A DNA stretch of 64,000 nt from Saururus chinensis (taxonomy: Eukaryota; Streptophyta; Magnoliopsida; Piperales; Saururaceae): positions 26,146,756 to 26,210,755 of the forward strand of contig CP141147.1 in NCBI GenBank assembly GCA_035235625.1. Reading direction: 5' to 3'. Below the pieces are notes generated by a model, which worked only from the letters and a program-made list of their open reading frames with translations, was not told where the DNA came from and did not search any database. Below, piece after piece: positions 23,728 to 49,142 of this stretch. A program made the translations under genes and the position numbers. Every line of letters starts with the position of its first letter. The stretch's first letter is position 1.

Positions 23728-23850
23728 ATGGAAGTTCCAGCTATAAACTTCCTTCGAGAGAAGGGAGACATCTGCACTACAAGTGGGACTACAGGGGACC
23801 CAAAGGGAGTTCCTTATGACAAATGGTGTTATTATAGCAGAGATCTTGAG
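23728..23850 (+). pseudogene. Long-chain acyl-CoA synthetase (LACS) exon, 5' part, cut by a transposon
   Basis: Plus-strand frame gives REKGDICTT-SGTTGDPKGV (23755-23811), the AMP-binding P-loop of the ANL superfamily as found in LACS (family form DICTIMYTSGTTGDPKG). Three residues are missing before the SGTTG, so the P-loop is shortened. One extra base at about 23812 shifts the frame; the following frame reads MTNGVIIAEIL up to the transposon at 23851. The exon resumes at 49143 after the 9-bp duplication. LACS enzymes activate fatty acids with ATP and CoA. This copy cannot do so. Confidence 0.8.
23842..23850. repeat. Target-site duplication GATCTTGAG, left copy
   Basis: Nine bases identical to 49134-49142. 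Nine-base duplications are the hallmark of Mutator-like elements. Confidence 0.85.
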
Positions 23851-24006
23851 TAAAAAATTTCAAAAATAGACTCCACAAATGTCAGAAATATAAAAATAGG
23901 CAGAGAATTCCAATTTTGCAAATTCTGGACTTTTGCGCACATGCAACCGGGCCACAAGTACCGTGTGAAATGGCATACATGCCCTTTTGCCTTATTAAAC
24001 CTCCCC
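23851..24006 (+). repeat. Left terminal inverted repeat of the MULE
   Basis: Runs from TAAAAAATTTCAAAAATAG through GGCATACATGCCCTTTTGCC to TTATTAAACCTCCCC; matches the complement of 48970-49133 with indels. Confidence 0.8.
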
Positions 24007-25025
24007 ACAAGGAAGCAACTCTAAGGGCTCCGGGTGATCACCCGTAAGCGCTTGCCCCCCTCGCATAGGCGATCGCTCAACTGATTCTCCTCTGCTAACT
24101 CCATGCCCTCACAGTCCACTATCCCTCCGCTTGAAGTCTCCTTTCAAATGATCAACGCGCACCGGCAAAAGAAGTCTTTGGACGAACAGTGGCCTCCAAG
24201 AGATCCTCCTCTCCCCGGCTACCTCTCTCCTGCTCCCCTGTCCTACTCCCACCCACGCTCAAGTCCCCTCCTTGGGCAAATTTCTATTGTCTGTTCACCA
24301 TTGGTGTAACTCTCATCCCGTTGTCCTTCTAAAGCGGCCAACTTTGGACTGCAAGTTGGTGATTGTAAGAATCCAACAGTTATATGCAAGTTCGGGAGGG
24401 TACAAATGTGAAGTGCAAGTTGCAAGGAAAAGGTATTGCTAAAATTTGTGAGAAGTGTTATATTTTGCTATATTTGTATGTTTTGTTAAAGTTATGTGAA
24501 TACGAGAAGATGTATGTTTGCCTAACCAATGGTGGATCCAGGAATTTAAGTTAAGAGTGGTCATTAAATAACCAACTCTAAAAGAATTCAATTCTTACAA
24601 ACTAAGTGTAACTTTTTTCTTAGAAAAATGGCTATATCAATAATAGCACACTAAGACGTCATTATATTTTTAATGCAAGAAGCAACTGATACTTTTATTT
24701 TGAGATACTTATCGAATGGTTTTGAGTAAACATAAAAATGGCATGACAATTAATTTTGTTTTGAAGCATATTGCCTAGCAACAAGACCAACAAATATCAT
24801 GTTGGCTTATTAAATTGATGAATAAAACTACCAATGAGATGAAAAAGAAAATTACCAAGGCAAAATAATTATAGCATAAGAGAGAAATTTTTATGAAAGA
24901 TTGAACATAGGAAAAGATACAGAGTGATGAAGATAAAGAATGTATTCTATTTTCTGTATGTTATATCACTATTTTCGATGCATATGTTAGCCTTTTGATT
25001 TGACTTGATCTTATAGATCACTGTG
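24007..25025. other. MULE interior, left; no gene recognised
   Basis: The first 420 bp are GC-richer than the surroundings and include a 68-residue Pro/Ser-rich open frame (24103-24309, plus) without recognisable domain. Subterminal GC-rich stretches are common where MULEs have captured gene fragments, but I cannot name a source. The rest is AT-rich. Confidence 0.35.
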
Positions 25026-25030
25026 GCAGT
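25026..25030. repeat. Target-site duplication GCAGT of the chromovirus, left copy
   Basis: Identical to 31433-31437 directly after the other LTR. Confidence 0.95.
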
Positions 25031-25894
25031 TGTCACAGGGGTGGAGCCTTCTCTAGCGTCCTCGCCTGTGATGGCCTAGCTGTCTTGCACAACCAGCAGC
25101 CAACTCTCCGTCCTTCCCTCACGTATGCACAGGGGGAAACACGTACACAGCCTACTCAGCCTTCTCTGGTGCAAAGGGGCTCTGCCCAATGCTTGTAAAC
25201 ACAATCCGTCGGTTACAATGGCAGGGAGAAGGGGTGGGGCTGACCAGTCAAAATGCAGGCAGAGAGGGAGCACCTTCTCTCTGGTTCGTCCTCTCTCATT
25301 CTCTTTGGTTTTCTGGGTTTTTGAACATGCCCAGGTCGCCCCAGCCTTCCCCCTTATATAGACTCAGCATACGAGTCCGAGTCCCACTAGGAATACAATC
25401 CCAGCCCAAGCAAATATAGTGTCTTTCCCTGTCCCAACTCTTCCCAGCTCATGGTTGTCCTAGCCAGCCTAGGAAACCTGTGAGGGTCGCCCAAACCAAA
25501 TAGGGAAACCTGTGAAGGAGTCTGACTTCGACTAGGAGTCCAGCGTCCATGAGCTTCTAGAGTTCTGTCATTTGAGGAAACCTGTGCATCATCTCCTACC
25601 TGTACTAGGAGTCGGGCTGTGCTGCCTCCCTGTGTCCTAGTGCTCCTAGGAGTCCGTCCCTAGGGTGTTGTGGCGCCCAACACACCACTAGGAGTCCTGC
25701 CCGCACAGGGACTCTGCCTCAGCCTGCTCTGCAAGGCGAGTGCTCATCCGGAACTGCTCCAACGCTGCTCCCAACATCCAACTGTGCCCAAGGGGCTGCT
25801 CAGGCTGTCCGTCGCCCAAGCTTACTTGGCTGTCCGCTGCCAAGCATAGGGGGTAACCGCCCCCTTGTCTAAGCAAAAAGTGGAGGGGCTAACA
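25031..25894 (-). repeat. 3' LTR of the chromovirus
   Basis: 864 bp. In element orientation begins TGTTAGCCCCTCC and ends CCCTGTGACA. Contains the minus-strand TATA box TCTATATAAGG at about 25352-25362. The pol frame ends 26 bases inside it, at 25869. Confidence 0.97.
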
Positions 25895-28800
25895 GGCCTC
25901 CCCCAACCAATCCCTTCGATGTCCCCGTTGAAGCTAAGTACTCTCGAACCTTGTCTTCGAACTGCCACAACGCGACGTCTCGCTCCCAGCTGTTCTCTGA
26001 CTCCGGAAGACCTTTCCACTTAACCAAGTAGAAAATCCTCCTATTTTTCCTGCTCATCCCTTCAACTCTGCTGTCCAGGATAGCGTCAACCTCCTTCTCA
26101 AAAGTGGTTCTAATCGTAGGTGGTGCTCTCTTCGAAGTACCTCTGCTGGAATCTTCCAAGTCTAAATGAAATGGCTTCAAAAAACTGACATGAAAAATTG
26201 GGTGAAGTTTGAAGCGTTCAGGCAACTCGAGTTGGTATGCTAGCTGGCCAACTCGTCGCTTCACCTCAAAGGGCCCATCGTAGCGCTGTATCAACCCTTT
26301 GTGCACGTCTTTCCTTCGCAGCTTCTTCCAAAGTTGGGGAGTAAGTTTTAGCATAACTCTGTCCCCAACCTGAAACTCAAGTGGTCTCCGGTCTCTGTCC
26401 GCATACTTCTTCATACGCTTGACTGCCTTGGCCAAGCAGTCACGCGCTTCCTCCATTCTCTCAGTCCGCCCTCTTGCCAAGCGATAGGCAGCGGGACACC
26501 TGCCTCCTGTCCACTGTAAGGCCACATCCGCTGGTGTAAGAGGTTGCTGGCCGGTGGCCAACTCAAAAGGACTGCTCCCTGTGGCTGAGCTCGTGTGTAG
26601 GTTATAGCAAAACTGAGCGACCTCCAGCAAGTCTACCCAGTTTTTCTGGTTCGCTGTGACAAAGTGGCACAAGTACTCCTCCAAGATAGCGTTCACCCGC
26701 TCCGTCTGCCCGTCCGTCTGAGGGTGATTGCTGGTCGAAAAGTTAAGCTGAGTGCCTAACATCTTGAACAGCTGAGTCCAAAACCTGCCTGTGAAACGAG
26801 TGTCTTTGTCCCTTACGATATCCATAGGCAGTCCCCAATACTTGACAACGTTTCGGAAAAACAAGTCCGCGGCCGTCTCAGCGCTGCAAGTCTTTGGGGC
26901 TACTATGAACGTCCCATACTTGGAGAAGCGGTCTACAACCACCATAATCGATCCAAAGCCCTGCACAATCGGCAAACCAGTTATGAAATCCATGGACAAG
27001 CTGACCCAAGGTCGGTCTAGGATGGGAAGGGGCTGCAGCATGCCCGCTTCCTTCTGCCTCTCTGTCTTGTCCTGCTGGCAAACCATACACGTCCGTACAT
27101 AATGCTCAACATCTTCTAGCATCTGCGGCCAGAAGTAATTCCGGGACAAGAGAGCATGCGTCCCTCTTGCCCAGGGTGACCTGCCCATGCAGAATCATGG
27201 GTCTCTCTCAGTAACCGGCGCCTCAAACTGCCAGCCAAGGGGATGTAGGGTCATCCTCCCTTCGCATACAGCACCCCCTGCTCCAACCAAAATCTCCGTG
27301 TAGACCCATCCTTCACGGATACGATCAGCCTAAGGCAGACTTGATCGTTCTCCTTAGCTGCTCGTATCTGGTCCAACATGTCCCCTGCAACCTGCACCAA
27401 AGCCGCCATCATAGCCTCTGGGTCCGTCCGTCGGCTGAGGGCATCAGCCACAACGTTGGCTTTGCCCGGCTTGTACTCCAACACGAAATCGAACTCAGCC
27501 AGAAATTCCTGCCAACGTGCCTGCTTGGGAGAGAGTTTCTTCTGCATAGTGAAGTAGCTCGTGGCTACGTTATCTGTCCGGACAAGGAACTTCTCTCCCA
27601 GCAAGTAATGTCTCCATGCTCTAAGGCAATGGACAACCGCAGTCATCTCTTTCTCGTGGACTGAATATCTCTGTTCGGTCTCGTTGAGCTTTCGGCTCTC
27701 ATATGCAACAGGGTGATTAGCCTGGATCAACACACCTCTAATTGCCCGATCGGAAGCGTCAATTTGCACCTCAAAGGGCGCATCGAACTCTGGAAGTTTG
27801 AGCACAAGCTCAGAGGATATGGCATCCTTAAGCTGCTCAAACGCTGTCTGGCACGTCTCAGCCCAGCACCAAGGCCTGTCTTTCTTCAGAAGGTCGGTCA
27901 GCGCTACTACCTTCTTCGAATAATTCCTGATGAACCTTCGATAGTAGTTTTCAAGTCCCAAGAACGATCTCAGCTCTGTCACCTTAGTCGGGACTGGCCA
28001 CTCAGCAATAGCCCTGACCTTCCGCCCATCCATCCTTACGCTACCATCCGCTATGCAATGCCCAAGGAACTCAATCTCCGTCTGTGCAAAGCAGCACTTC
28101 TCAAGCTTCAGAAACAGCTTGTGCTCCATTAGCCTTTCCAACACAATCCTGAGATGGCCAACGTGCTCATCCAAGGACGCGCCGTACACCACTATATCGT
28201 CAAGGTAAACAACCACAAACCGGTCCAAGTAGGGTCTGAATACATCGTTCATCAGAGTGCAAAAGGTGGCTGGTGCGTTCGTCAAGCCGAAGGGCATCAC
28301 TAGGAACTCAAACAGCCCATAGCGTGTCACCATCGTTGTCTTTGCCTCGTCACCCACAGCTATACGTACTTGCCAATAACCCGACCTGAGATCCAGCTTT
28401 GTGAAGTAGGAAGCCTTCGCCAAGCTATCGAACAAGTCAGCCACACGAGGGACTGGGTACTTGTTCTTCACAGTAATCTGATTCAGTGCTCAATAGTCCA
28501 CACATAATCGTAAGGATCTGTCCTGCTTCCGCTGAAATAGGACTGGGGCTCCAAAGGGAGCCTTAGATGGTCTGATAAAGCCCGCCTTCAACAGCTCGTC
28601 AAGATGCTTCCGGAGCTCTGCTAACTCTGGTGGAGCCATGCGATAAGGGGCTCTGGCTGGAGGACGAGTCCCTGGAATCAGCTCAATCGCATGGTCTACA
28701 GTCCGTCGTGGTGGGAGGGTCTGCGGCAACTCTGGTGGCATCACATTCGCAAACTCACTCAGCAACATCTCCACCTTCTCTGGAACGTCCAGGGCTGTGT

Positions 28801-30475
28801 TCTCAGCTTCCACCATCGTGACCAAATAGGTCGAATGGCCCTGCTCAAGGCCTTTCTTCAGCTGAAGCGCAGACACAACCTGCACCTCTGTCTCGCCTTT
28901 GTTCTCAGCAACAAAGCATGGTACCCTCTCGTCACCGATGAGGATTCCCCTAAGATGTGGCATCACGGACACCTTAGACAATCTCATGAAGTCCAGCCCA
29001 AGGATCAACTCGAAGTCATCCAAGGGAACAACGGTGAAGTTCACTCTGCCCGTCCAACCACCAATCCGCACCGGCAAGTCATGGACAACTCCCAGGATAG
29101 GGGCTGCCTCTGAGTTCACTGCCTTGATCCGGGCTTGAGCCTTCTCCGTCTTCAGACCCTAAGCTTTCACACACTTCTCTGCAAGGAAATTATGGGATGC
29201 ACCTGTGTCAACCAGCGCCCGTACTGGCTATTTGTCTAGGACTACATCAACGTATATCAGCCCGCTATGATCTGCCTTCTCCTTTCGGATAGCGCTCACA
29301 ATCTGCATGGGGTTCATATGGGCAGTGACCTCCTCTTCCGAAGAAGAGCCATCCTCCATAACCACAGCGTTCAGCTTCTCCCTCTTCGGGCACTCCTTGG
29401 CACGATGAGGACCTTGGCAGATGAAGCAGGCTATCCCCTTTGATTTGTTGGGTTCAGCCTGTTCACTGCGCCTCCCCTTAGAGTCATTCCTGTGTGCCTC
29501 ACCGTTCCCACCATTCCGTCTGCGTCCGCCCTTGGAGGAAGAGGCCCCCTTGTCTCGTTTCTGTGTGGCTGGTTCAGACCTATAGTCAACCAACCTTTCA
29601 GCCGCTGTGATGGCTGAAGGGAGATCACGTACGTTCTGCCTCCTCAACTCGTTCTGCGCCCAATTCTGAAGACCGGTCAGGAAGTTGAACAACTTGTCCT
29701 CCTCCGTCATGTGTTTGATGTCCAAGAGGAGGGACTGAAATTGTTTAACGTACTCCCTGACTGTCCCCGTTTGCCTCAGCTTCCTGAGAGAGTCTCGTGC
29801 AGCCCACGCCGTGTTCGTGGGGAGGAACTGCTCCCTGAGTTCCTTCTTCATCAACGCCCAGGTCTGGATAAGGGGACGCCCAGTAGCAGCGTCGTCTTCC
29901 AGCCTGGTTCGCCACCAAAGCTTGGCATCTCCTGAGAGATACAAGCTCGTCACCATAACCTTCTCCTCGTCCATAGTATGGGTAATCGCGAAAAACTACT
30001 CCATATCCCAAACGAAGTTCTCAATGTCCTTAGCACTCTGCGAACCAGAGTAGGACTTCGGTTCAGGCACCTTCGCTTTCTTCATGGACTGCCCTGTCTT
30101 GAACCTGGTCTCCGCCTCTGACCCTGCAGGCGAGGAATTCAAAATGGTACGCTCAAGGAGGGCTATTTTGTCCGTCAATTCCTGCACCTTCTCATCAGTT
30201 TTGGTCCTCAGATCTCGCAGTTTTTCCCTCGTGTACTCCTTCGTAGCAAGGGTGTTTGCAGCAACTCGAGCAGCACCTCCGGTGGAAGTGCCTTCTCCAG
30301 CATCATCCGCATAGGCACCTATCTCCAGCAAGGAGAGACGCTGGTCAAAGGCTCCAATACGTTCCTGGACAGAACGCAAGGTAGCCTGGACATCAGCCAG
30401 CGTCCCTGGAGCCAACTTCAGGGCTTCCAGCTTTGTCTCTACCTCTGTCAACCGTGTTAACATGGAGCCGGTCAT
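25869..30475 (-). pseudogene. Chromovirus gag-pol, one frame broken by five stops and a frameshift
   Basis: Starts at 30475 (MTGSMLTRLTEVETKLEAL, coiled coil). Gag capsid at 29974-29600 (GDAKLWWRTRLED), zinc knuckle CFICQGPHRAKEC at ~29430, protease LVDTGASHNFL at ~29200, RT with YLDDIVVYG at ~28190, RNase H ending at [14 protein letters not shown] (~27440), integrase with its three acidic positions (MDFITGL, VRDKDTRFTG, NHPQTDGQTERVN), GPF/Y module and a C-terminal chromodomain (VDAILDSRVEG...FYLVKWKGLPESENSWE, ~26085-25980). Lesions: TAG 29996, TAG 29228, TAG 29159, TGA 28490, TGA 27251, and a one-base shift near 27170 before RTHALLSRNYFW. At four sites the residue expected from the family is Gln (CAG) or Arg (CGA). 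Confidence 0.93.
25895..25908 (-). other. Polypurine tract of the chromovirus
   Basis: On the minus strand GGTTGGGGGAGGCC directly abuts the 3' LTR, the expected primer for plus-strand DNA synthesis. Confidence 0.8.
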
Positions 30476-30568
30476 GGTGTTTCCTTTGCTGTCCGATTCG
30501 GCAAGGAAACCTGGGTTCTAGGGTCTGGAACGTACCTGGTTCGTTCGTATCCCGGCAATGGAACCAAC

Positions 30569-31432
30569 TGTCACAGGGGTGGAGCTTTCTCTAGCGTCCT
30601 CGCCTGTGATGGCCTGGCTGTCTCGCACAACCAGCAGCCAACTCTCCGTCCTTCCCTCACGTATGCGCAGGGGGAAACATGTACACAGCCTACTCAGCCT
30701 TCTCTAGTGCAAAGGGGCTCTGCCCAATGCTTGTAAACACAATCCGTCGGTTACAATGGTAGGGAGAAGGGGCGGGGCTGACCAGTCAAAACACAGGCAG
30801 AGAGGGAGCACCTTCTCTCTGGTTCGTCCTCTCTCTTTCTCTCTGGTTTTCTGGGTTTTTGAACATGCCCAGGTCGCCCCAGCCTTCCCCCTTATATAGA
30901 CTCAGCATACGAGTCCGAGTCCCGCTAGGAATACAGTCCCAGCCCAAGCAAATACAGTGTCTCTCCCTGTCCCAACTCTTCCCAGCCCATGGTTGTCCTA
31001 GCCAGCCTAGGAAACCTGTGAGGGTCGCCCCAACGAAATAGGGAAACCTGTGAAGGAGTCTGACTTCGACTAGGAGTCCAGCGTCCATGAGCTTCTAGAG
31101 TTCTGTCATTTGAGGAAACCTGTGCATCATCTCATACCCGTACTAGGAGTCGGGCTGTGCTGCCTCCCTGTGTCCTAGCGCTCCTAGGAGTCCGTCCCTA
31201 GGGTGTTGTGGCACCCAGCACACCACTAGGAGTCCTGCCCGCACAGGGACTCTGCCTCAGCCTGCTCCGCAAGGCGAGTGCTCATCCGGAACCGCTCCAA
31301 CGCTGCTCCCAACATCCAACCGTGCCCAAGGGGCTGCTCAGGCTGTCTGTCGCCCAAGCTTACTTGGCTGTCCGCTGCCAAGTATAGGGGGTAACCGCCT
31401 CCTTGTCTAAGCAAAAAGTGGAGGGGCTAACA
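30569..31432 (-). repeat. 5' LTR of the chromovirus
   Basis: 864 bp, same length as the other LTR with about 30 differences. TATA box on the minus strand at about 30890-30900 (TCTATATAAGG). Followed by duplication GCAGT at 31433-31437. Confidence 0.97.
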
Positions 31433-31437
31433 GCAGT

Positions 31438-32284
31438 GCATATATAAGTAAAAAAAAGGGCATTAGTAATTTATTGTAGTATGATTTGGCAAATATGAGC
31501 TAGGTAAGACTATCTTATTCAAATTCAGCCCTATTAAAAGTTTAATTTTGAACCAAGTTTATGCTCAAGTCTATTTCAGCATTTGACCAACAATGATCCA
31601 TGCATTTTCCTAATTAAAAGTCTAATTTTGAAACAATAGGTAATTATGTTTGACCAGCTGGGTTTGTACATTTGTAACATTTAGTTTTTAGGGTTGGGTT
31701 CGATTTTACCTAAGAAAATCATTTGTTGGGTTCAAAGTGGTCAAGGTTTTATCTCTAGATGGTCAACGAATAGTATCAAAATTCCTTACTTACCCAAGTC
31801 AAAGGGGGATAGTAAGGTAATTAGAAACACTTGAAAAGGCATAGTCAAGTGGAAATAAAGTAAATAAATGCTAACAGTTAGTAGTTAACTACCAACTATA
31901 CTAATGTGCTACTAAGATAAAGTCATAAATAGCTTGGATATAACTACTTAAAGAGGTTAAAAATAGTTTGATGTGTATGTTTAATTAGTGTACTGTCACT
32001 GAGAAACTTAATTGTTACAATAGTTTTGTCAATTGCTATGTTTGAAGTTCACTCAAGGTGGAAATTAAATATTGGTGTGGAAATTAGTATCCCTATCAGT
32101 GAAATTTGGAACCATTTTTGCCTTACTTCAAAGCAAGTTCTTTCTCAACTGTAGTGTATATGATATTTTGGCAATTCTTTTAATTGAACTCAAGTACCCT
32201 GAGTGATCTATTCGTTTCTTCTTTCAAGCATAAAGAAATTTTATGTCGAGCAACGTTTCCGCACACAGGATAAGCATGAATTAC
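31438..32284. other. MULE interior between chromovirus and CACTA element B
   Basis: AT-rich, no recognised gene. Its right end joins, across CACTA element B, to the splice acceptor of the captured methyltransferase exon at 39290, so part of it should be intron of that fragment. I could not find the preceding exon. Confidence 0.4.
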
Positions 32285-32829
32285 ATGCACTACAACAAAA
32301 TTAACTATCGCTAATAGTACTGTAAGTGTCACTAATAGTTATTAGCGATGTTTACTAAACATCGCTACATGCATCGATAAAAGTGTCATCGCAATTGCAT
32401 ATTAACAACGTATAAATCAAGCATCGCTAAAAGTACAGTATTAGCGACGTTTACTAAGCGTCGCTATTAGTATGGTATTAGCGACGCTTTTGATTCAACA
32501 TCGCTAATAATATAGTATTAACGACATTTATTAAACGTTGCTAATAAAAAATATTTAAATTTTTTTAAAATATAATTTTTTTTTAAATAAATTAAATAAA
32601 TAGTTATTAATGACGCTTATGTAAGCGTCGCGAATGTATATAATATTTTAAAATATATTAAAAATAATTATTCATAAATAAAAAAATAATTTAAAACTAT
32701 TAATGACACTTAGTAAATGCGTCGCTAATAGTACATAAATAAAATATCTATTAGCGACGCTCATATTGAGCGTCGCTAAAAAAAATTAAATAATAAAAGA
32801 AACCACCAAACTGAGTCAGTACCCGGTTT

Positions 32830-33410
32830 GGTTTGGAACAATGGGCATAGGGCAGGGGGGGTTGGAGTAGGGGAGGGAGGTGGTGGGGGACTGGAGGGGG
32901 GATTGGAGCGGGGCGGTAGGGAGGGAAGAGGGGAAGGGAGCGGAGAGGGATGGGACTGGGCGGTGGTGGCCAAAGCAGTGGGGGCCTGGAGTAGAAGGAG
33001 AGAGAAAATGGGGAAGGGTTGAGAAGGGGGAGGGGAGCGAGGGCGGCGGTGGAAGGAGGACCGGAGGCAGTGGGGAGATGAGATGGCGGGCAGCGGCGGA
33101 CAACAGGGAGCAGAAAGGGGAACGGAGGGGGTGTGGAGGTCGGACTAGAGGACAGAGCGGCAGGGGCGGGTGGGCCGAGGAGGATGCAGGGTGGCGGGAC
33201 GGAGAGGAGGTGGGGCGGCGAGGCTGCAAGCGGTGGCGGCAGACGATAGGGAGCAGAAGGGGAATGGAGGGGTGGGGGGATCGTACCAGAGGACGGAGCG
33301 GCCGGGGCGAGTGGCTGAGGAGGAGGCGGGGCGGAGAGGAGGTGGGGTGGAGACGAGGTGGGGTGGCATGGCGGTGGGAAAATGGGGGAGGGGGGCTGGG
33401 TAGATTTATA
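32830..33410. repeat. G-rich module of CACTA element B
   Basis: Plus strand rich in GGGG, GGAGG and GGCGG runs, like 10245-11060 in element A but with more CGG. Open frames of 60-210 codons on both strands are Gly/Arg-rich or Pro/Ser-rich and judged to be compositional. A TATA-like ATTTATAGA follows at about 33402-33410. Confidence 0.7.
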
Positions 33411-33462
33411 GAGGCGGGCAGAATTTCACCTGAGATATTTAAAAAAAACAAAAATTACATTA

Positions 33463-33701
33463 GCGACGCTCACTGTGAGCGTCGCTAATACAAACTAATA
33501 GCGACGTATAAGTGCTTCGTCGCTAATACAACACATATTAGCGACATATACACTTATATGTCGCTAATATTATGATTTTTAGCGATGTACACACTTATAC
33601 GTCGCTAATACAACATAGTATTAGCAACGCATAAGCCTATACGTCGCTAATAATATGTTGTCTTAACGACATATAGTTTATACATCGCTAATACTCCGAT
33701 T
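33463..33701. repeat. Cluster of TTAGCGACG palindromes in element B
   Basis: At least five palindromes in a row, for example TAGCGACGCTCAC/GTGAGCGTCGCTA at 33461-33487 and TATTAGCGACATATA/TATATGTCGCTAATA at 33536-33569. Arms match each other even where the core changes from GACG to GACATA. Confidence 0.85.
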
Positions 33702-33719
33702 TTTAAAAAAAGAAATTCA

Positions 33720-35049
33720 TATCTCCTCCCCTCTCTCTCTCACTCTCTCCCCTCCCCTCTCTCTCTCTTCCCTCTCCTTTCGCTCCCTATCTCCTCCCTC
33801 TCTCTTCTCTCTCTACCCTCCCTCTCCCTTCTCTCTCTACCCTCTCTCTCTTCCCTTTCCTCTCTCTCCTCCTCTCTCTCCTCACTCTCTCTCCTCCCTC
33901 TCCTCTCTCGATCTCCCTATCTCCTCTCTCTCTCCTCCCTCTCCTCTCTCGATCTCCCTATCTCCTCTCTCTCCTCCCTTCTCTCCCTCTCCTCACTCCC
34001 TCTCTCTCTACCCCCTCTCTCTCCTCCCTCTCCTCTCTCTCTCCTCCCTTATCTCTCTCCTCCCTCTCCTCTCTCGATCTCCCTATCTCCTCTCACTCCT
34101 CCCTTCTCTCTCTCTCTCCTCCCTCGCTCCCCCTCTCGTCTCTCTCCCCCTCTCTCTCCTCCCTCCCTCTCCCCCATATCCTCCCCTTCTCTCTCTCCTC
34201 TCTCTCCTCATTCTCTCTCCTCCCTCCCTCTCTCTCCCCCTCTCTATCTCCTCCCTCTCCTCTCTCTCCCTCTCCTCTCTCACCCCTCTCCTCTCTCTCC
34301 TCCCTCACTCTCTCTCTCCTCCACCTACTCTCTCTCTCCCCCTCTCTCTATTTTATATTTTATATTTAAAAAAATTACTTATCATCTCCTCCCTCTCTCC
34401 TCACTCTCTCTCCTACCTCCCTCTCTCTCTCCTCCCTCCCACTCTCTCTCTCCCCACTGTCTCTCCGTATCTCCTCACTCTCTCTCCTCCCTCCCTCTCT
34501 CTCCCCCTTTCTCTCTCTCCTCGCTCTCCTCTCTCTCTCTCCACACTTCTCTCTCTCCCTCTCATCTCTCTCCTCTGTCACTCACTCTCTCTCCTCTATC
34601 TCTACTTTATATTTTTTATTTAATAAAAAATAAAAAAATTATATTAGCGACATATAACCATATACATCGCTCATACTAAGGGTATTAGCGACGTATGGGC
34701 TTATACGTTGCTAATACTCAAAGGTATTAGCAACATATAAAGATATATGTCACTAATACGCAAGGTATTAGCGACGTATATTTGTAAGCTTTGTTAACAC
34801 TTTTTTTTTATTTTTTAATCAATTTAAAAAAATATCTCTTCATCTCCTCCCTCTCCTCTCTCTCTCTCCCCCTCCCTCTCTCTCCCCCCTCATTCTCCCA
34901 CTGTCTCTCCGTATCTCCTCTCTCTCTCCTTCCACTCCTCCCTCCCTCTCTCTCTCCTCCCTTCTCTCTCCCTCTCTCATCTCTCTCCTCCGTCACCCTC
35001 TCTCTCCTCTCTCTCCCCCTCTCTCTACTTAATATTTTTTATTTAAAAC

Positions 35050-35083
<34 letters not shown>

Positions 35084-36886: not shown

Positions 36887-36922
<36 letters not shown>

Positions 36923-37409
36923 TGACAGATAACCATATACATCGCTAATACTAAGGTATTAGCGACGTATATGCTAATACGTCTCTAATACTCGAAGGTA
37001 TTAGCGACATATATAGATATATGTTGCTAATACGCAAGGTATTAGCAACGTATATTTGTAAGCGTCATTAATACTTTTTTTATTTTTTAATCAATTTTAA
37101 AAAAATTTAACTCTTCTTCTCCTCCCTCTCCTCTCTCTCCTCATTCTCTCTCCTCCCTCCTCTCTCTCCCCTGTCTCCTCTCTCTCTCCTCCCTCCCTCT
37201 CTCTCCCCTTCTCTCTCTGCCCCTGTCTCTCTTCCACTGTCTCTCCGTATCTCCTCTCTCTCCTCCCTCTCCTATCTCTCTCCTCCCTTCTATCTCTCTC
37301 CTCTCTCCTCCGTCTCCTCTCTCTCTCCTCCTCTCTCTCCCTCTCATCTCTCTCCTCCGTCACTCTCTCTCTCCCCCTCTCTCTACTTTATATTTTTTAT
37401 TTATTAATA

Positions 37410-37458
<49 letters not shown>

Positions 37459-38640: not shown

Positions 38641-39289
38641 TTATTGTAAATTATATTTTAAAATTAATAAAAAATTTAACAAATAAAATATACTATAAAT
38701 AAATAATGAAAATTTAATCTATTATTAATGCTAGTTTTTATTGAAAGTTTAATATTTATTTATTGTATATATAAATAGTAAATATTAAATAAAACATATT
38801 ATATTTAGGAAGTTTATTATAATTTTTTAATATTTATTTATTAAATAAATTTAATTAATAAAGTTATTATTGATGCATGTTAACAAACGTCGCTATTATA
38901 AATGGTATTTGCAACGCTTATGTAAAAGCGTTGCTAATAGTTTAAATTTTAAATTTTTTATTATTTTTAATTCACAACTATTAGTGACGCTTTTGTAAGC
39001 GTCGCTAATAGCAAGCTTATTAGCGACGCTTTGCTATAAGCGTCGCTATTGTGACATCTGTTAGCGACGCTTAATAAAAGCATCGCTTATAGTCATATTT
39101 TTTTTATTTAAAATATATATCTTTTAGTGACGGTTGTTTAAAGCGTCGCAAATATAGGTACTATTAGCGATGCTTATAATAATGTGTCGCTAATATTGTT
39201 AGTATTAGCTACGCTTAGATAAGCGTCGCTAATAAATGCGTCGCTACTGCTACATTTTGTTGTAGTGATGGTTGACTTTTGATATGCAG

Positions 39290-39442
39290 ATTTGGTATGA
39301 TAATGTTCCTCATCTAAAACTTGTTGAATACAAGAAGGATTAGAACTGGGTGCGAATATCTGGTGACTATCTTATCTTTCCAAAGCGTGAAACCCAGTTT
39401 AAAGAGGGAGTTGTTAACTATATTCAATATATAGAGGAGATA
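39290..39442 (+). pseudogene. Exon of a PMT-type (QUASIMODO2-like) putative methyltransferase, captured fragment
   Basis: After a good splice acceptor (GACTTTTGATATGCAG, ending 39289) the frame reads IWYDNVPHLKLVEYKKD, stop, NWVRISGDYLIFP, KRETQFKEGVVNYIQYIEEI. This closely follows the plant PMT/DUF248 family (IWYDNVPHxKL...QNWV...FPGGGTQFxxGxxHYIDFIQ). These are Golgi proteins implicated in pectin methylation. TAG at 39341 replaces the conserved Gln (CAG) and GGG is replaced by KRE. No downstream methyltransferase (DVGCGVASF) exon was found, so only one exon appears to be present. Retention of the splice acceptor shows DNA-level capture rather than retroposition. Confidence 0.75.
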
Positions 39443-39689
39443 TTCCATTTTCTTCTATTTCTTGGACTAAATTTCTGCTTCTTTGAGCAATTGGTATATA
39501 TGTGTGAAATATATATTTTCTTTCAGACTCATTTTTTTTGTTTATGTGTTATTTCATATCATCTAGAATAAAATTTGTTACCTCTAGAATGTCTTAGAAA
39601 TTATAGCAATCCAACGCTTTCTGTAGTCTAATATTATCTTATGATGGCTCCATGTGTTATCCTATTACTCAATTACAACCAAATACATA

Positions 39690-40470
39690 ATTAACTGATA
39701 TGTATTTTTTATTGGTAGGCTAAGAACAATATATATCATTTGTTTTACCAATGTTTTGAAGGATGTGATCTGATTTTCAGCAAGGAGGAGACCATATACC
39801 CTAGTTTATATGGATAAAAAGAAGTTAACTAATATGGCCCAACTATTGACTCGTAGATGTAAGGAGACTTTTTTTTATAAAGTACATTGTGTAGTCATTT
39901 GATCAAGTTAGGTTTATATATGGGTAAATAAATAAGCTTGCATGTGAGTTATATTGTCAAACATATCTTGTGTGTTTGGTGATTAGTATGCATGTCTTTG
40001 ATAGATAATAATAGATGCAAAGTAATTAATTGTGACTGTATTTGTTGTTGGTAGGCTAAGTACGAACGATATATATTATTTGTCTTACCCATGTTTTGAA
40101 AGATGTGATCTTATTTCTAGCAAGGAGTAGACCATAAATCATAGTTTGTATGGATAAAAAGAAGTTAACTGATAAGGCATAACTGTTGACTGATAGATGT
40201 AAGGAGGTCTTTTTTTTCAAAATACATTGTGTGGTCATTATATTTGATCACGTTAGGCATATATATGGGTAGATAAATAAGCATGCATGAGAGTTACATT
40301 GCCAAACATATATTATGTATTCGGTGCTTAGAATGCATGTCTTTGATAGATAATAATAGATGTAAAGTAATTAATTGTGAATATATTTTTTGTTGGTAGG
40401 CTAAGTAAGAACAATATAGCTCAATAGTTTTACCCTTGTTTTGATTGCTTAGTAGCTGTTACATTTCTTC
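39690..40470 (-). repeat. Satellite array, minus orientation (336-345 bp unit, about 2.3 copies)
   Basis: GGTAGGCTAAG starts at 39714, 40050 and 40395 (spacings 336 and 345 bp). The complement of this unit matches the array at 42960-44140, including its TAGCCTACCAACAA, ACCAAACACACAAGAT, AATGACCACACAATGTA and GTCAACAGTTA segments. It is thus the long form of that satellite in opposite orientation. Confidence 0.8.
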
Positions 40471-40503
40471 CTCACCATTAGCGATTTTCTGTTGGCAGGA
40501 TGA

Positions 40504-40616
40504 TTTGATATGATCTTGAAATACCTGACATTTGATGTTTTGAAGCATAATGTTGCAATGGAGATGGTGTTTAAAGCAAGGAGTGAAGTTCTAAACCTGC
40601 TACACAAAGGCTTGTG
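40504..40616 (+). other. Possible coding fragment, unidentified
   Basis: A frame shortly after an acceptor-like TTGGCAG (ending 40498) reads LTFDVLKHNVAMEMVFKARS and then EVLNLLHKGL before TGA. Its composition looks protein-like and one-exon sized, but I do not recognise a family. It may be another captured fragment inside the MULE. Confidence 0.25.
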
Positions 40617-41790
40617 ATAAGGCACACTTCTTTATTCCTTCTAATATACAAATTTTTTGAGTGAAAGTTCTTGTCTGTTTTATCGTTATGTTGTCCTCTC
40701 TGTTTTTTCCCCTTTGGCAACATACTGGCAGGTTTAGTCTCACATCAACAACGTAAGCAAGGTGATGGAGGATGTTAGGTTCATCTTCAAAAGGGATGCA
40801 TGGGGATGTTAGGTTCATCTTCAAAAGAGACAGTTGGACTAGAGGCTACTGGTTTTGTACAGTTGTAGTACTGTATTGTGACTCCACCTAAGAACACAGG
40901 GCCTAAATATAATTCAAAGTCAAGGATAGTCTGAGTTGCTACATTTTTATCCTTTTCCTTTTCGCCTTTTCCACTTGTATGTGGATTTGATGGGTTGTAT
41001 GAAAATTTAATGAGTAGCGTTTTGTCTCACTTGGGGGGAGCATTGTGGCCTTTGTGTCTACAGGTGCTATGGCGATTGTATATTTTCCATCCGTAATACA
41101 AGATAAGTTTTGTGTTGGATATCGAATTGTTCTATGATGTGTTTGGTTTGTTTTGAAGTGTTGACTGATTGGTTTCCATGGCTGCATCGTCTAGGACTTT
41201 AGAGAAGCCAATTTTGAGAATTCTCTATTTGCATGGGATGGTTGACTGTCTTTGTTTTCTTTGAGGGATACCTTCCTCTGACATACGCTTACGCTATTGG
41301 GTCCAATCTGAGGCTTGGGATAGGTATAGTGAGAAGCCGATCATGCCTAATGTGATAGCCACAATATGTGCAGATTTGTGCTCTCCAATGTTGGTAGAGG
41401 TACCATGGGTGCCAAAAAAAATTAGAAGAAATTGGGATTTAAAAATTTTGTGTGAATGAGATATGTGGGGTCTTATATGCATCAGTACAATCATATTAAC
41501 TAGAAGTTTTTTTTTATTACAGTGCAAGACCAAGCCCTGCACCTCTCTTGATATGCTCCTACTAGGATATTTCTATGAAGCAGTTTGCTTAATGCTGAAT
41601 AACTTATATTATTTACTATGATGCTGCCATTTGTATGTCACATGGCTGATACATGTTTTTACTTTAAATTTAATTATAATATCAATTTCTTTTTCTCTTG
41701 GCAAACATAATTTTACGATTGAAAAACCTTGTGGAAACCTTACTTTATATTTATTTATTAAAGTACTATATTTTTATATTATCATTGCAG

Positions 41791-41910
41791 CAAAAGATGG
41801 ATGAAATGTTGAAGAAACTTCCTGAGGGGACGCAATATACCTTGTCTTCAAGTGATTTATTTGCTTAGATCATAGGGAGAAGAGAGAAATGGTCATGTTC
41901 AAATTTCATA
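41791..41910 (+). other. Possible coding fragment, weakly like a plant En/Spm accessory protein
   Basis: After an acceptor-like ATTGCAG, the frame reads KMDEMLKKLPEGTQYTLSSS then DLFA, TAG, IIGRREKW. The pattern (S/T)xxDLFxQ(I/V)(I/L)G resembles the C-terminal part of plant transposase families associated with En/Spm (Ptta-like). TAG would replace a Gln codon. Similarity is by memory of the motif only. Confidence 0.25.
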
Positions 41911-42169
41911 AATGCAAAATGATCTATATATTTCTATTTTGTCATTCAGATATTTTAAAGAACCACTTCTATGTTACTTTAGTTTATGGATGGTTCAATG
42001 GAATGATCGATGTTTATATTATTTTGTTAATATATTCAAACACTATAAAATGTTTATTTTCTAGTCACAGTAAATATAATTATCATTATTTATAATGTTA
42101 TTAAGTGGTCACAATGAATACAATCAACAATTATTTTAAAAAATAACAATGTGGAAATTAACAACGTTT

Positions 42170-42490
42170 TCCCCTCAGGAATGTCACTAATTAGTAATGT
42201 GCAATTGAAACGTCGTTAATAGTGTTTCAATTGCACATTACTAATTATTAGCGACATTCTAAAACACCATTTATTTCTTCTTATGACTTCCTTATATTTA
42301 TATCAATACTTGTAAATGTCGCTAATTGTTATCGAAAAACATCACTAATATTTTTAGCGATGCTTTATAAAACATTGTTATTAATTATAGTTGCGACATT
42401 TTATACAAACGTCACCACAAATGTCACAAATACTTTTAGTGATGTGACATTTACATAAAACGTTGTTAAAAGTATTAGCGACATTTTATA
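42170..42490. mobile_element. Fragment with CACTA-type subterminal motifs, ends lost
   Basis: Diverged GTCGCTAAT/ATTAGCGACATT motifs in both orientations (for example TTGTTATCGAAAAACATCACTAATATTTTTAGCGATGC), plus an inverted CACTAATTAGTAATGTGCAATTG / CAATTGCACATTACTAATTA pair around 42192-42247. No CACTA terminus could be found on either side. It looks like a decayed relative of elements A and B. Confidence 0.5.
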
Positions 42491-42599
42491 TACATAAGTT
42501 AGGTACTATCCACCATATAAGTGCTTCCATCTCATTTAAACATGCTTCACATGCCCATTAGTTCATCGAATAGGAAACCATTAAATGTACTCGAGAGTT

Positions 42600-42960
42600 A
42601 TATTAGTTAGGTACTAACATTTATAAATTGAGCCATATCAGTCAATGCTTTCAGTTTCAAATTTTCCACCATTTCTATTGACTTTCTTCAATTTGATTCT
42701 TAACCACTAATTCCTTCATGTCTAGTTACATCTCAACATGCTTCTCAACTACCATATAAGTGTCCTAAAAGTAAAGATTGAATGTACTGAGAGTTACGTC
42801 ATTTAGGTATTAACAGTTTTCAATTGAGCCATATCAGTCAATGCTTTTAGTCTCAATTTTTTTACTATTTCTGTTGACTTTTTTCAATTTGATTATTAAT
42901 CCCACTCATTCCTTCCTTTCTTACATCCTTCAAATCAATAATAAAACTAATAAGACACAA
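42600..42960. repeat. Two-copy tandem repeat, 196 bp
   Basis: ATTGAGCCATATCAGTCAATGCTT begins at 42627 and 42823. Each copy includes GAGAGTTA...TTAGGTA before it and CTTTTTTCAATTTGATT after it. Confidence 0.75.
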
Positions 42961-44140
42961 TGTAATTCAAAAAATATAAGCCACCTGCCATCTACTAGTC
43001 AACAGTTAATATGTATTAGTTAACTTTGTTCTAACTATATAAACTAGGTCATATGATATCCTCCTCGCTAGATGTCAGATAACATCATTGAAACCTACCT
43101 TGTAAACCTATCTCGCTAAAAAATAATGACCACACAATGTACATCGACAAAAAAAAGCCTCCTAACATCTACCATTCAATAGGCAGCCTATATCAGTTAA
43201 CTTTGTTTTAACCATATAAACTAGATTATATGGTCTCTTGCTCACTAGATATTAAATCACTTCACACTCATGAGTAAAACTAATTATATATATTTTTCTT
43301 ACTTAGCCTACCAACAAATCATATACATTCATGTACTTACTTTTCATCTATTAAAATCTCTTACAAGTATGCACATTAAGCACCAAACACACAAGATAGT
43401 GTTGAAGTTATTACTTACATATACTCTTATTTATCCACCAATATATAAACCTAACTTGCGCAAATCTAATGACCACTCAATGTATTTCGAAAAATAAAAG
43501 CCCCCTACCATCTACTAGTCAATAGTTAGGCTGTATCAGTTAACTTTGTTTTAACCTATACACTAAATCATATTGTCTCCTCCTCACTAAATATCATATC
43601 ACATCATTCAAACCTACCTTGTAAACCCATCTTGCGCAAATCTAATGGCCACACAATATACTTTTAAAAATAAAAAACCTCCTACCACCTATCAGTCAAT
43701 AGTTCGACTATATTAGTTAACTTTGTTTTAACTATATAAACTAGGTCATATGGTCTCTTCCTTGCTAGATTTCAGTTTACACCATTGAAACCTACTTTTT
43801 ACACATATCTTCCTCAAAAATAATTACCACAAAATGTACTTCGACAAAGTTAAGCTTCCTACCATATAGTAGTCAACAGCTAAGCTGTATGAGTTAACTT
43901 TATTTTAACCATATAAATTAGGTCAAATTGTCTCCTCCTCGCTAGATATCATTTCACAATTGAAACCTACTTTCTACACCTATCTTCCTCAAATTTATTT
44001 ACCACAAAAATGTACTTTGACAAATAAAAACCTCATACCATCTACTAGTCAACAGTTAGGATGTATCAATTGACTTCGTTCTAACTAATAAACTAGATAT
44101 TAGATCAAATCATTCAAATCATGAGTTAAACTAAAAGGCT
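42960..44140 (+). repeat. Satellite array, plus orientation (177-bp short and 343-bp long units)
   Basis: The landmark GTTAACTTTG or its variant starts at 43019, 43196, 43539, 43716, 43893 and 44069: spacings 177, 343, 177, 177 and 176 bp. A typical unit has CTACCATCTACTAGTCAACAG, GTATCAGTTAACTTTGTTTT, AACTAGGTCATATGGTCTC, GAAACCTACCTTGTA and ACCACACAATGTACTTCGAC. The long unit carries about 166 bp extra (43290-43450), which is exactly what the opposite-orientation copies at 39.7-40.5 kb also carry. Confidence 0.85.
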
Positions 44141-45887
44141 ATATTCTTCTTCCTTAGCCATTTTAAAATTTAAGGCTTATATATCTTACTTTTTTAGTCA
44201 TTTTAATGAAGAGACATTTTTTTACCAACGAGGCAACGACCTCAAAAGCTCATGATTTTGGGCAAAATAGCTCATTTAGGCTAATTGTAATTTAATTATA
44301 TCCTAGAACATGTATCAGTCTTGCATGACTCCCAAGTCTGAGGATACAATGTTGAGCAATCAGAAGCTCCTTAGAAACTTTATACAGATTAACCATAAAC
44401 CTTTATTTCTTTGCAAAAGTAAAATAGAAATCGAGAATTTGTTGTATAGAATAAGTACAAACCTTATTCATTCGCAAAAGAAAAATTGAAATCGAGAATT
44501 CGAGGCCACCAACATTGCATAATTTAAAATTGAAGGATAAATAAAAAGTGCTTGATAGCAAATCAAAAAGATCATTGACAAGTGCAAGAATAACATCCCT
44601 TTTTTCTCTTTTTTTCCTATTGTTAACAATGGTGCCCAGGTCCTTATGACCCAAGCTCTTTTGTTGCACACTTCTTTAGAACCAGAATATTCTATTTGGC
44701 AAGCAAATGTGGTAAATGACAGTCAATTTATCATATGTACATATTGTTACAAGTTATCTCGTACCATATAGCCCGAAGTTGCATTCCTGATTTTAGTTGC
44801 ATATCCACGAAGTTGCATTCCTGATTTTAGTTGCATATCCACAAAGCTAGGATTCTACAAAAGGAAATGGTTATCCCGATAAATTATTCCGTTCTTTGTT
44901 TAAATGAACCCAATAACTGTGCATTACTCTGGGAAAGCAGTAGATCTTTCATTTCCTTGTAACTTCTAAGTTCCTCTAGTGCATCTATGTCTTTCGAGGC
45001 ATGAAGAATCCTAAAGAACCAAATTGTCCATCAAATTCAGATTTGGAAGACTGAGACATGTAGCTTTGGTCTTGGCGAAGAGGGGGATGTCTTGCCTACA
45101 ACAACATCTTGTGAGGTTCTAGAAGAAGGCAATGCATGGTTGGAACTAGATTCAGGGGTTTCCTTTCTATCAACAGTCATGTTCACAAGAATAAGATAGG
45201 TATATTGTTTACATGAATCTTAAAATAGCACCTTTCAATTATGCAAATGTCAAGGAAGTTTTGAATAGATGAAAACATTATTATGCAAGCTATAAAAAAT
45301 TTGTTTAATTTTGACTAATACAATCCTAAAAGAATCAAGCAAATAAAAAAAACTATCCTACTTTCTACATAAACTCTCCTGTAGCTAGCTATCACAATAA
45401 ATAACTTGCAATCAGTAAGTAGTGTTAACATGTAGAGAAGAGGGCACTCACTTCATAATAGTATAGAACTCAAGCAAGTTGTTCGCTTGCTTGAGTTCTT
45501 GGCACCCAATAGTAATGTGGTGCTAATAACACAATTCTAAGGTACATTCACTTGCTTAGAATTGTGAACACAATTCTAATTGTGAACTCAAGAAAATAGA
45601 ACCAGAAAAATCAACAGAATTAGACATTGCATAACCCCATTGCCGGAAGAAAATAATCCAAATGAAGTTGCTGGTAGGGCTGTGGAGAAATGGTCAGCAC
45701 AAGCTTTTGCTGTTCCACCTTGAATAAGTAGTGGATCCCTTACTGGAATTACCCCTGAGAAGTTCCAAAGCGAGTGCCCTAAAATTATGTGTGTGTCGAA
45801 AGCAAATGAGAAGAATTGATCATCATAAAAAAAAACTAATGAGAAGCTCATAAAATGGTGCACTTTATTCTATGTTATTTATTAAGA
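44141..45887. other. MULE interior; no gene recognised
   Basis: AT-rich. A minus-strand frame around 45060-45180 gives a Ser/Pro-rich stretch (TPESSSNHALPSSRTSQDVV), with SQSSKSEFDGQFGSLGFFMP in another frame just after. It looks exon-like but I do not recognise it. Confidence 0.3.
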
Positions 45888-45888
45888 T

Positions 45889-46030
45889 ATATGCCCCACT
45901 AAAATAGAAAAAAACAACTTTTGTGACCAACCCATATAAAGATAAAGAATTTTTTTCGTATATGCCCCACTCAAATAGAAAAAAACAACTTCTGTAACCA
46001 ACCCATATAGAGCTAAAGATTTTTTCCCTA
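45889..46030. repeat. Two-copy tandem repeat, 71 bp
   Basis: ATGCCCCACT(A/C)AAATAGAAAAAAACAACTT begins at 45891 and 45962, each followed by ACCAACCCATATA and a T-rich end. Confidence 0.8.
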
Positions 46031-46480
46031 CACAAATACAGATATCTATTCCCTGTCACAAAAAAAATGAAGAAAGAATCCAAAAATTGATGCAAAAAAC
46101 ATGCTGGGAGAGGAAGTAGTTGGACAAAATTCTCCCTATTGTCACAGAGAATATTAGTAAATAACTTCCCTCCAAATCCAATATTTAGAAAATATTTTCT
46201 CTTACACTTAAATTAAAACTACCAAAGGCTCATTTGAAGTCCTTAGCAGAGAGATAATCATCAATACATATATTAAGCATTAAGTCCAACAAGATAATGA
46301 ACTAGTCCATAATGTGAAGTACTTGGCAACTATAAATATTGATTGCAAATTATAATCAATGATTGCAACTAAATATTTTGGAATCATTACATGAACAGAG
46401 CTACAATACAAAAAAGTAGAATTGAAAAGGTAGTAGTGATATCATGCACAAGTGAAAATTATACATGATGATTTGCTATA

Positions 46481-47075
46481 AAGGAGAACCTAAAAGAAAC
46501 AACCATGCCAAAGACCAAAAAAATCACAATGCAGAGGAACTCCTACCACAACCCAACCTGGCCAGCAAAACAAATATTAAAACTCAAGAAAATAGAACCT
46601 GAGAAAATAAAAAGAATTACACAGCAAGCAAAGCAAATGTTTCTGGGAAAGCATATCATAAAGTATCTATTTAACAGAACATAGAGAAAATCATGCAAAA
46701 AAAAATTTAAATGGATGTGTTTGAGCAGGAATTGTATGCAATTCTATAAGGTATATATAATTAATGGCAAAAATATAAAGGAGAACCTAAAATAAACAAC
46801 CGTGACAAGACCAAAAAAATCACAGTGCAAAGGAACTCCTACCACAACCCAACGTGGCCAGTAAAATAAATATTTAAACTCAAGAAAATAGAACCTGAGA
46901 AAATAAAAAAAATTACAAAACAAGAAAAGCAAATGTTTCTGGACAAACATATAATAAAGTACCTATTTGACAGAACATAGAGAAAATTATGCAAGAAAAA
47001 ATGTAAATGGAGGTGTTTGAGCAGGAACTGTATTCAATTCTGTACAGGTTCATATAATTCACAGAACACAAAAGG
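46481..47075. repeat. Two-copy tandem repeat, 297 bp
   Basis: AAGGAGAACCTAAAA begins at 46481 and 46778. Copies share AACTCCTACCACAACCCAAC, AACTCAAGAAAATAGAACCTGAG, GCAAATGTTTCTGG and GTGTTTGAGCAGGAA. A partial third copy (CAATTCTATACAGGTTTATATAATTAATGG) lies at about 47131-47165, and a related AACTCAAGAAAATAGAACC occurs near 45586. Confidence 0.8.
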
Positions 47076-47709
47076 AAGACAAATGACATCACATGAACTC
47101 GTAGAAAAAATATATGTAGGTCACACAAAGTACAATTCTATACAGGTTTATATAATTAATGGCAGAATTATGGGAAGAAGAGCTTTTCCATTGGTGTAGA
47201 CAATTGGCTTTTGAAATCAATTTGACTAGAACACTTCCACATGTCACCTCCAATGAATTATTGGACATGTATATAAATGCAAAGAAGACAAAATGAAGCT
47301 ACAGATTTTAGAACCAGAGGCACTGGTTATTGTCAAATGAAGCAACATATGATTTGAATTAGTCAAAGATCCCTGCGTCATTTGAATAGATGGTTCATCT
47401 TCTATTTATTATAGTGTTTACTGGATGCAAAATCCTCTCATGTTAGGGTATATTAGTGACATCTCACTGGTTACTCAGTCTATCTACTATGCTGAAGTTA
47501 TAAGTTTTTGTTTCCCCCCAAATCTGGTTATGTAACATAAAGTATACACACTGAAAGTGAGAAATGGTCCTTAGCAATTTCTATCTGTTATCACCCATCG
47601 GTTTTAAATTTTTAGCAAAGTGAGAAATAGCGGCCTTCATCAGTTTCTATTGGTTATCAACAAGAGATTTTAATTAAAGATTTTTTTTTCTATTGGTCAT
47701 TGGCTTAAG

Positions 47710-47891
47710 ATGTTGAACCTAGGTTCACAAAAGATCAATTTTCCATAAAAACACAAGAGCTTAATGACAAGGTTGAATCCCTTAAGAGGTGCAATGAGGA
47801 CCTTCAATTGAAGCATCTACATACGAGTAATACACTGGCAAACTGCACACCTAGTGACACATATTACATTGAAGAAAATGCAAACTCGTGA
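47710..47891 (+). other. Possible coding fragment, coiled-coil-like
   Basis: An open frame of about 60 codons reads TKDQFSIKTQELNDKVESLK and RCNEDLQLKHLHTSNTLAN before TGA. Heptad-like Leu spacing suggests a coiled coil. No family recognised; perhaps another captured gene piece in the MULE. Confidence 0.25.
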
Positions 47892-48969
47892 AAGAGGATA
47901 TAACGGAGGGATAGTTGCCAAAAGCATAATTCCTGAAAAATTGGATTCACATTCATCGCATATTAGATGTTTAACCTCTTTCATATCACTTTTCCTAAGC
48001 TCAGGCAGTCTGGGAAAAAATCAAGGATGCAGATCAAATAAGCCAAATATCACAAACAAATGCAATCCACAGTCCGCCTTAATATCCTCAGCTAATAGGT
48101 ATTCTGACCACAATCACTGTAACCCATACAAGACAAAGGTTCCATGTGCTAATAGGCATTCACAATAAAGTATATTTGGGCCCATAATAGGTATTTTGAC
48201 CACGATCACTAACCGAGAGAAGAAATTTTCTTTCCAAACAATGATAAAAAAATGAATAATTTGGATATACAATAAGGCAAATTGAACAATTAATTCAAAA
48301 TTTGGAGCATGACAATTAATCTCAACATATAGTTCACACTTTCACCCTTACAGTGAGCAACTTACAGTTTTAGTTTTCAGTTAGACAAATGCAAATATTT
48401 GCTGTGAAATCACAGCTAGTACAAACATTCAAACAATATCATAAATAATTCATAGATAGACTCCTGAGTGGAAGCAATCAGACATCTAAAAAAGGGAACT
48501 TAACAATCAAAGAAAATTATAGCACGCATTCTGAGCCAAAAATAATTGAAACTACCTTAATATTTATTTGGTTATGCAAAAAATAAGGGATCAGGGATCT
48601 GACCTAGCCAATCGATTATGAAGCCTAAGCTTCAGAGGGCCGGTAGATGAAAGCTGCACCAAGGGTGCAAAAGCAATGAAAATCAGCCCTAGGATGGGAC
48701 CGTGAGCATGGGTAGAGGTAGGATAGAGGAGTGGGAGAGAGGAGAATCACCTAGATGAGGTGCGCATTCCTTTATCAGTAGACCGGTAGAGGAGACTTAG
48801 AGCAGCGGGACAGTGGTTGTGACTGCTCAGAGGTGGAGGAGGAGATTGTAGAGGGAGAGATGGGGCCTGGGAGAGGTAGATATGGTTGGCGATGCAACCT
48901 GGTGATCTGTGGAGAGAGAGGACTGCGATCACCCAGAAACCAACAACAGTGGAATTGATTGCATCGAGA

Positions 48970-49133
48970 GGAGAGGTGTTTATTAAGAGAAATGACATAT
49001 ATGCCATTTCGTACTATACATGTGGGGGTTTCGCATGTGCCTAAGTCTACGTTTGCAAAACTGAAATTCCTTGCTTATTTTTGTATTTCTCACATTTGTT
49101 GAGTCTATTTTAGAAATTTTTTTGATCTTGAGC
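48970..49133 (-). repeat. Right terminal inverted repeat of the MULE
   Basis: Complement of the left repeat. Reading inward from 49133: AAAAAAATTTCTAAAATAG, then ACTCAACAAATGTGAG, GAAATGGCATATATG and TTAATAAACACCTCTCC. Confidence 0.8.
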
Positions 49134-49142
49134 ATGGAACAC
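49134..49142. repeat. Target-site duplication GATCTTGAG, right copy
   Basis: Identical to 23842-23850. Confidence 0.85.

Follow-up and report, generated by a model that had tools for sequence, protein, structure and literature searches.

A Mutator-like element with captured host gene fragments and two nested elements in an exon of a Saururus chinensis gene copy

Mutator-like elements (MULEs) duplicate 8–11 bp of their target, usually 9 bp, and have long inverted ends, although these are not present in all of them. Pack-MULEs are MULEs in which a fragment of a host gene lies between the ends, a related gene is found elsewhere and there is no transposase. In this report we describe a 64-kb stretch of DNA from Saururus chinensis (the window; coordinates count from its position 1) in which an exon of a gene copy, which we take to be LACS-like, is split by such an element. 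We put the probability at about 95% that a transposase-less Pack-MULE of ~11.9 kb hit this exon and that a chromovirus and a CACTA-type element were nested in it later. The insertion is confirmed as real and is ordinary in kind, and it provides a clear and well-controlled worked example. The order of events can be followed at one locus with internal controls, namely intact paralogous exons, sister copies free of the nested elements and matching host genes.

The sizes of described elements vary. According to the portion of a review cited here (PMC6431247), the Pack-MULEs of Jiang et al. 2004 do not exceed 7 kb, and most are 1–2 kb. Table 4 of PMC2528002 gives grapevine MULE families of 11, 11.9, 14.4, 16.2 and 17.7 kb, lengths that perhaps include nested inserts. 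MULEs carrying Ulp1 are known from Arabidopsis, melon, rice and grapevine; the grapevine families marked in the same paper as having a ULP-1 region include Mutavine-18, with a length of 16.2 kb and terminal inverted repeats (TIRs) of 230–263 bp. The Arabidopsis KIU elements are characterized in a passage of PMC13317346 as non-TIR MULEs. Nested insertions have been reported in 36% of maize and 41% of rice candidate coding MULEs (PMC3903597, in the section cited). Nested insertions, Pack-MULE captures and Ulp1-bearing MULEs have all been described already in the cited portions of PMC3903597, PMC6431247 and PMC13317346. No description of the present family was found in the excerpts consulted from the MULE and Pack-MULE literature on giant, large, nested and Ulp1-carrying elements, a literature search that was not directed at this species and says little on the point.

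The insert occupies 23851..49123 (unstranded) and is 25,273 bp long with its nested elements, or 11,883 bp once these and the additional duplication copies that come with them are left out. An exact 9-mer, GATCTTGAG, abuts both ends on the + strand, at 23842..23850 on the left and 49124..49132 on the right, which lies within the range known for MULEs. In the window GATCTTGAG occurs only at 23842 and 49124, and its complement does not occur, therefore the right copy of the duplication is at 49124–49132. The preliminary description of this DNA was correct about the exact duplication and its left copy but had placed the right copy 10 bp away, at 49134–49142. When random pairs of sites were drawn in the window, with 6x6 shifts allowed and pairs less than 200 bp apart skipped, an exact 9-mer was found in 28 of 20,000 draws. 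The insert ends in long terminal inverted repeats of ~150 bp, the left one at 23851..24006 (+) and the right one at 48964..49123 (-). Aligned to each other (156 and 160 bp) they have 124 identities, 24 mismatches and 20 gap positions, or 84% identity at the aligned positions. The local alignment score is 125, compared with a maximum of 30 among 200 shuffled pairs, so that the inverted ends of about 155 bp noticed earlier withstand alignment. A fainter similarity between the two ends reaches ~490 bp inward.

The 5' part of the split exon lies at 23735..23850 (+; start approximate) and is frameshifted, and the 3' part lies at 49133..49166 (+), followed by an intron and by the next exon from ~49327. 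Once the insert and one copy of the duplication are removed, the frame IIAEIL/SMEHLLLEANKV runs on across the junction. When the two flanks were joined and searched against the same genome, four matches were obtained, namely the two window pieces and two full-length matches at 88%, C8:26281658-26281829 (L063; ~71 kb past the end of the window) and C9:1897135-1897306 (L064). In both the exon is intact with a single GATCTTGAG, and both read nearly identically to the window copy at the IIAEIL/SMEHLLLEANKV junction. As the two copies are paralogues, they show the original state of the exon and not that of the window allele. Could the exon always have been split by a very long intron, with the 9-bp match and the inverted ends arising by chance? 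Long introns occur in plant genes, and the comparison lacked an allelic empty site and had paralogues in its place. However, in two paralogues the exon is uninterrupted and contains GATCTTGAG once, the ends score far above the shuffled pairs and the same ends bound other copies elsewhere, and a long intron is considered extremely improbable.

A sister copy of the element, E1 (C4:29551010-29562500; 11,491 bp), is located on another chromosome. In reverse orientation it is collinear with the insert from end to end, apart from small gaps and the two nested elements (chromovirus and CACTA-type), which it lacks. With the nested elements removed, the window element (11,883 bp) and E1 can be aligned at 11,292 positions with 93.2% identity (K=0.071), and the largest gap in the alignment is at most 178 bp. 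A second copy, E2 (C4:45205773-45219744), matches the left end, the interior probes and 48865-44658 and has ~2.6 kb extra near its right end. In the copy at C4:45.08-45.09 Mb, matches to three interior probes and to the right end follow one another in the same order. These collinear copies indicate that the ~11.9 kb travelled as one unit, and the single jump of ~12 kb proposed earlier is borne out by E1, which is collinear from end to end without either nested element. A composite, in which two short MULEs flank DNA that never moved as a unit, would find its precedent in the short elements of ~2.2 kb with similar ends (C7:23321378-23323595). It is hardly credible here: the collinearity with E1 takes in the entire interior, E1 is flanked by a near-exact duplication of its own, and the two outer copies of the duplication in the window enclose all 25 kb.

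The Mutator-like element belongs to a multi-copy family. The 33-base core of the ends, with up to 3 mismatches, is present at 148 genome sites, 77 and 71 by strand, and the reversed pattern is present at none. The genome searches with the two ends covered the best 40 of 98 and the best 40 of 275 candidates and give lower bounds. Target duplications were found at all seven of the end pairs that were read. Four are exact over 9 bp (those of the window, of copies on C2 and C11 and of the 2.2-kb C7 element), and three have one mismatch (E1, E2 and a further copy, E3). In a control of 42 mismatched end pairs, with the best of 36 shifts taken, 8/9 was reached once and 9/9 never. Dispersed copies with the same ends and their own duplications, as expected of a MULE, are present in the genome; the preliminary description had proposed looking for them but had not recognized that the element belongs to such a family. 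A tandem repeat with a unit of ~177 bp is located in the element at 42959..44098 (unstranded), and related repeats are found in E1 and in a transposase-bearing relative discussed below.

The element carries fragments of host genes, which had been overlooked earlier. Pfam detects Methyltransf_29 (PF03141), with E=3e-12 beside the CACTA-type element and with E=4e-14 in E1, and a multi-exon host gene of this family is found at C1:58897522-58903190. A stretch of 655 bp of the C1 host gene is 90.5% identical to E1 and 89% identical to the window, where the CACTA-type element separates it into two parts. The first part of this captured fragment is at 32063..32287 (+), and the second part, at 39268..39686 (+), contains the exon with the PF03141 match and the following intron. 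The fragment consists of one exon flanked on both sides by non-coding sequence, read as introns, and its exon has an in-frame stop that is common to the window and E1 and absent from the C1 host gene. Used as a DNA probe, the fragment was found at 13 places in the genome: the window, the host gene, ten others of at least 250 bp and one of 67 bp. Five of the ten adjoin known family ends (C4:44.4, C4:29.56, C4:45.2, C4:45.08 and C7:19.69 Mb). The fragment is not found in the C2, C3 and C11 copies, which match the interior probes and are absent among the 13 places. It was either captured after these lineages had split off or lost from them.

A second fragment was probably captured as well. The + strand sequence at 45612..45771 is identical at 141 of 160 positions to C8:30486242-30486401, which lies inside an exon of a different host PF03141 gene. 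Its match to PF03141 (E=0.00027, 20.1 bits) is below the curated cut-off of 23, and the general scan does not list it separately. The first fragment keeps unspliced DNA as Pack-MULE captures do; the second is uninformative in this respect. It has been considered whether fragments taken from two PF03141 genes point to homology-guided capture, in which one piece draws the next, and not to chance. We think this unlikely.

Host gene sequence has been shown for only ~0.8 kb of the 11.9 kb. As host gene fragments with related genes elsewhere lie between MULE ends and no transposase was found, the element can be described as a large Pack-MULE. It is like Pack-MULEs in its long inverted ends, its 9-bp duplication and the lack of a detected transposase, as well as in having a host fragment of exon and intron whose nearest gene is elsewhere and which several copies share. 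It differs in its length of 11.9 kb, outside the rice set of 2004 (up to 7 kb in the portion of the review cited), size being a descriptive and not a defining property of Pack-MULEs.

The transposase was searched for in all six frames of 39268-48971, 31433-32287 and 23851-25030 and of the middle 8.2 kb of E1, and none was found at E 0.1 or better. Ulp1 was not found in the window element. The lack of its own transposase does not exclude the element from the MULEs because these have non-autonomous members without one. Among the best 150 of 2831 candidate places for the MULE domain, inspected by eye, none is in E1, E2, E3 or the window; the same set misses the decayed domain of the relative described next, therefore it is no proof of absence. 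Opposed end cores 10–25 kb apart, found by eye, pointed to longer relatives, one of which was chosen. This relative, at C1:41503030-41518669 (L069/L070), is 15,640 bp long and has ends of 153 bp at 87.6% identity and a duplication of AACCTATTA/AAGCTATTA (8/9). All its stop-to-stop frames are shorter than 140 residues. In the 9.9 kb scanned, one strand contains pieces of the domains DBD_Tnp_Mut (E=3e-10), MULE (E=4e-7) and SWIM (E=5e-7), and the opposite strand contains pieces of the Ulp1 domain Peptidase_C48 (E=8e-11) and of DUF1985 (E=1e-7, under the cut-off). A MuDR-type transposase, in decayed form, is present in a member of the same end family, and these remains together with Ulp1 tie the family to the MuDR-type, Ulp1-bearing MULEs. 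The likeness of the window element to the Ulp1-carrying MULEs lies in this 15.6-kb relative with similar ends; the window element itself differs from them in showing neither transposase nor Ulp1. It differs from the Arabidopsis KIU elements, characterized as non-TIR in the source passage cited, in its long inverted ends.

As no transposase was found in the window copy, the insert might be a DNA transposon of another kind that makes 9-bp duplications, for instance a Merlin-like element. This is very unlikely, since MuDR transposase, MULE and SWIM domains are present in the C1 relative, whose ends and internal repeats are similar. The earlier proposal of a MULE-type insertion with a 9-bp target duplication is supported by the ends, the duplication, the dispersed copies and the MuDR-bearing relative. 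The suggestion that ~12 kb is very large for a MULE is not supported. With a relative of 15.6 kb in the same genome and grapevine families of 11 to 17.7 kb listed in Table 4 of PMC2528002, such a length is not exceptional. A MULE of ~12 kb without recognizable transposase has multiplied and is bigger than the rice Pack-MULEs cited, which makes it useful for the question of how much cargo a MULE transposase can move. The picture of how MULEs work is not changed.

Several observations weigh against the reading as an inserted Pack-MULE. The intact exons are paralogous rather than allelic, and the comparison is within one genome. The outermost base of the window copy is T at both ends, while four of seven left ends start with G and five of seven right ends end with C. 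The duplication of E1 is one base off the predicted ends, and as one control pair reached 8/9, the three duplications with one mismatch are weak when taken singly. No transposase domain was detected in the element, scanned up to its last 152 bp, or in the middle 8.2 kb of E1. The link to the transposase-bearing relative consists of 71–76% identity to E1 in the ends and 60–79% in the shared tandem repeats. Under the Pack-MULE reading, a Mutator-like element of ~11.9 kb without recognizable transposase and already carrying methyltransferase-family gene fragments would have been inserted into the exon, with duplication of GATCTTGAG, by a MuDR-type transposase supplied in trans. Later insertions of a Ty3 chromovirus and a CACTA-type element would have brought it to 25.3 kb. 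We infer the supply in trans; with at least 150 MULE transposase places in the genome such a source is plausible, though not shown.

The nested chromovirus is a Ty3-type long terminal repeat (LTR) retrotransposon at 25031..31432 (-). Its LTRs of 864 bp (TG..CA) are identical at 834 of 864 positions and enclose gag, protease, reverse transcriptase, RNase H, integrase and a chromodomain, of which the aspartyl protease (24.1 bits) and the integrase core (27.1 bits) score slightly below the Pfam cut-offs. It is flanked by a 5-bp duplication, GCAGT. Four left-end loci have the site without the chromovirus: L002, L003 (the same as E2), L007 and L009. It is also missing from E1, in which ~120 bp next to that site are absent. 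The CACTA-type element at 32288..39267 (unstranded) has the ends CACTACAACAAAAT..ATTTTGTTGTAGTG and a 3-bp duplication, ATG, and is probably non-autonomous. No Pfam domain was found in its three + frames, the frames that the scan covered. E1 does not have it, and the host gene that supplied the surrounding stretch runs uninterrupted through the insertion site. Judging by these sequence comparisons, both elements arrived later than the MULE, in agreement with the preliminary description. Together they doubled its length from ~11.9 kb to 25.3 kb. Nested insertions are known from other MULEs; here an LTR retrotransposon and a CACTA-type element have doubled a transposase-less one. A substitution rate of 1.3e-8 per site per year is used for grasses. 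At that rate the chromovirus would date to ~1.4 million years ago and the divergence from E1 to ~2.7 million years ago, values that give the order of events only, as a grass rate may not fit this host. By eye, the CACTA-type element is composed mostly of TC-rich tracts and dispersed repeats around TTAGCGACGT. Repeats like these are also found outside it at ~42160-42500 and are perhaps the trace of another such element.

The gene copy has other lesions that the preliminary description missed. Compared with both paralogues, it lacks 9 bp and has 1 bp extra in the same exon upstream of the junction, with more indels in the next exon, therefore the gene copy as a whole is out of frame. The C9 paralogue is open across the two exons examined, and the C8 paralogue is out of frame in the second. 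As the window copy is frameshifted elsewhere too, the gene that the insertion struck was not necessarily functional. The continuity of the LACS frame claimed earlier holds across the junction, with the insert and one duplication removed, but not for the gene overall, and the name LACS is tentative, the searches showing just the AMP-binding family. Profile matches predict that the split gene is a member of that family. The window piece itself matches it at E=0.064, under the cut-off, and two exons of the C9 paralogue gave hits to chains of 4-coumarate-CoA ligase and peptide synthetase, with E values from 0.0024 to 9e-5.

The same gene copy is probably split by a further, older LTR-type insertion of ~5.7 kb at 49600-55350, as the match to the C8 paralogue (L063) resumes at 55348-55750 and the interval contains a gag match at ~52.4 kb and direct repeats ~3.6 kb apart that are 78–88% alike (49606-49884/53220-53498, 50805-51071/54373-54639 and 51078-51377/54647-54946). 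Beside the split exon, 23540-23610 has no match to either paralogue and surrounds a short palindrome, CACTCACATGTGAGTG; its appearance suggests a minor insertion or patch. At L063:398-501, ~0.5 kb from the gene-matching part of the C8 paralogue, there is a sequence resembling the ends of this MULE family (76%). Two P450 gene copies are also located in the window, at 18039-19609 and 61636-62562, on the same strand and ~43 kb apart, and are 77–82% alike where matched.

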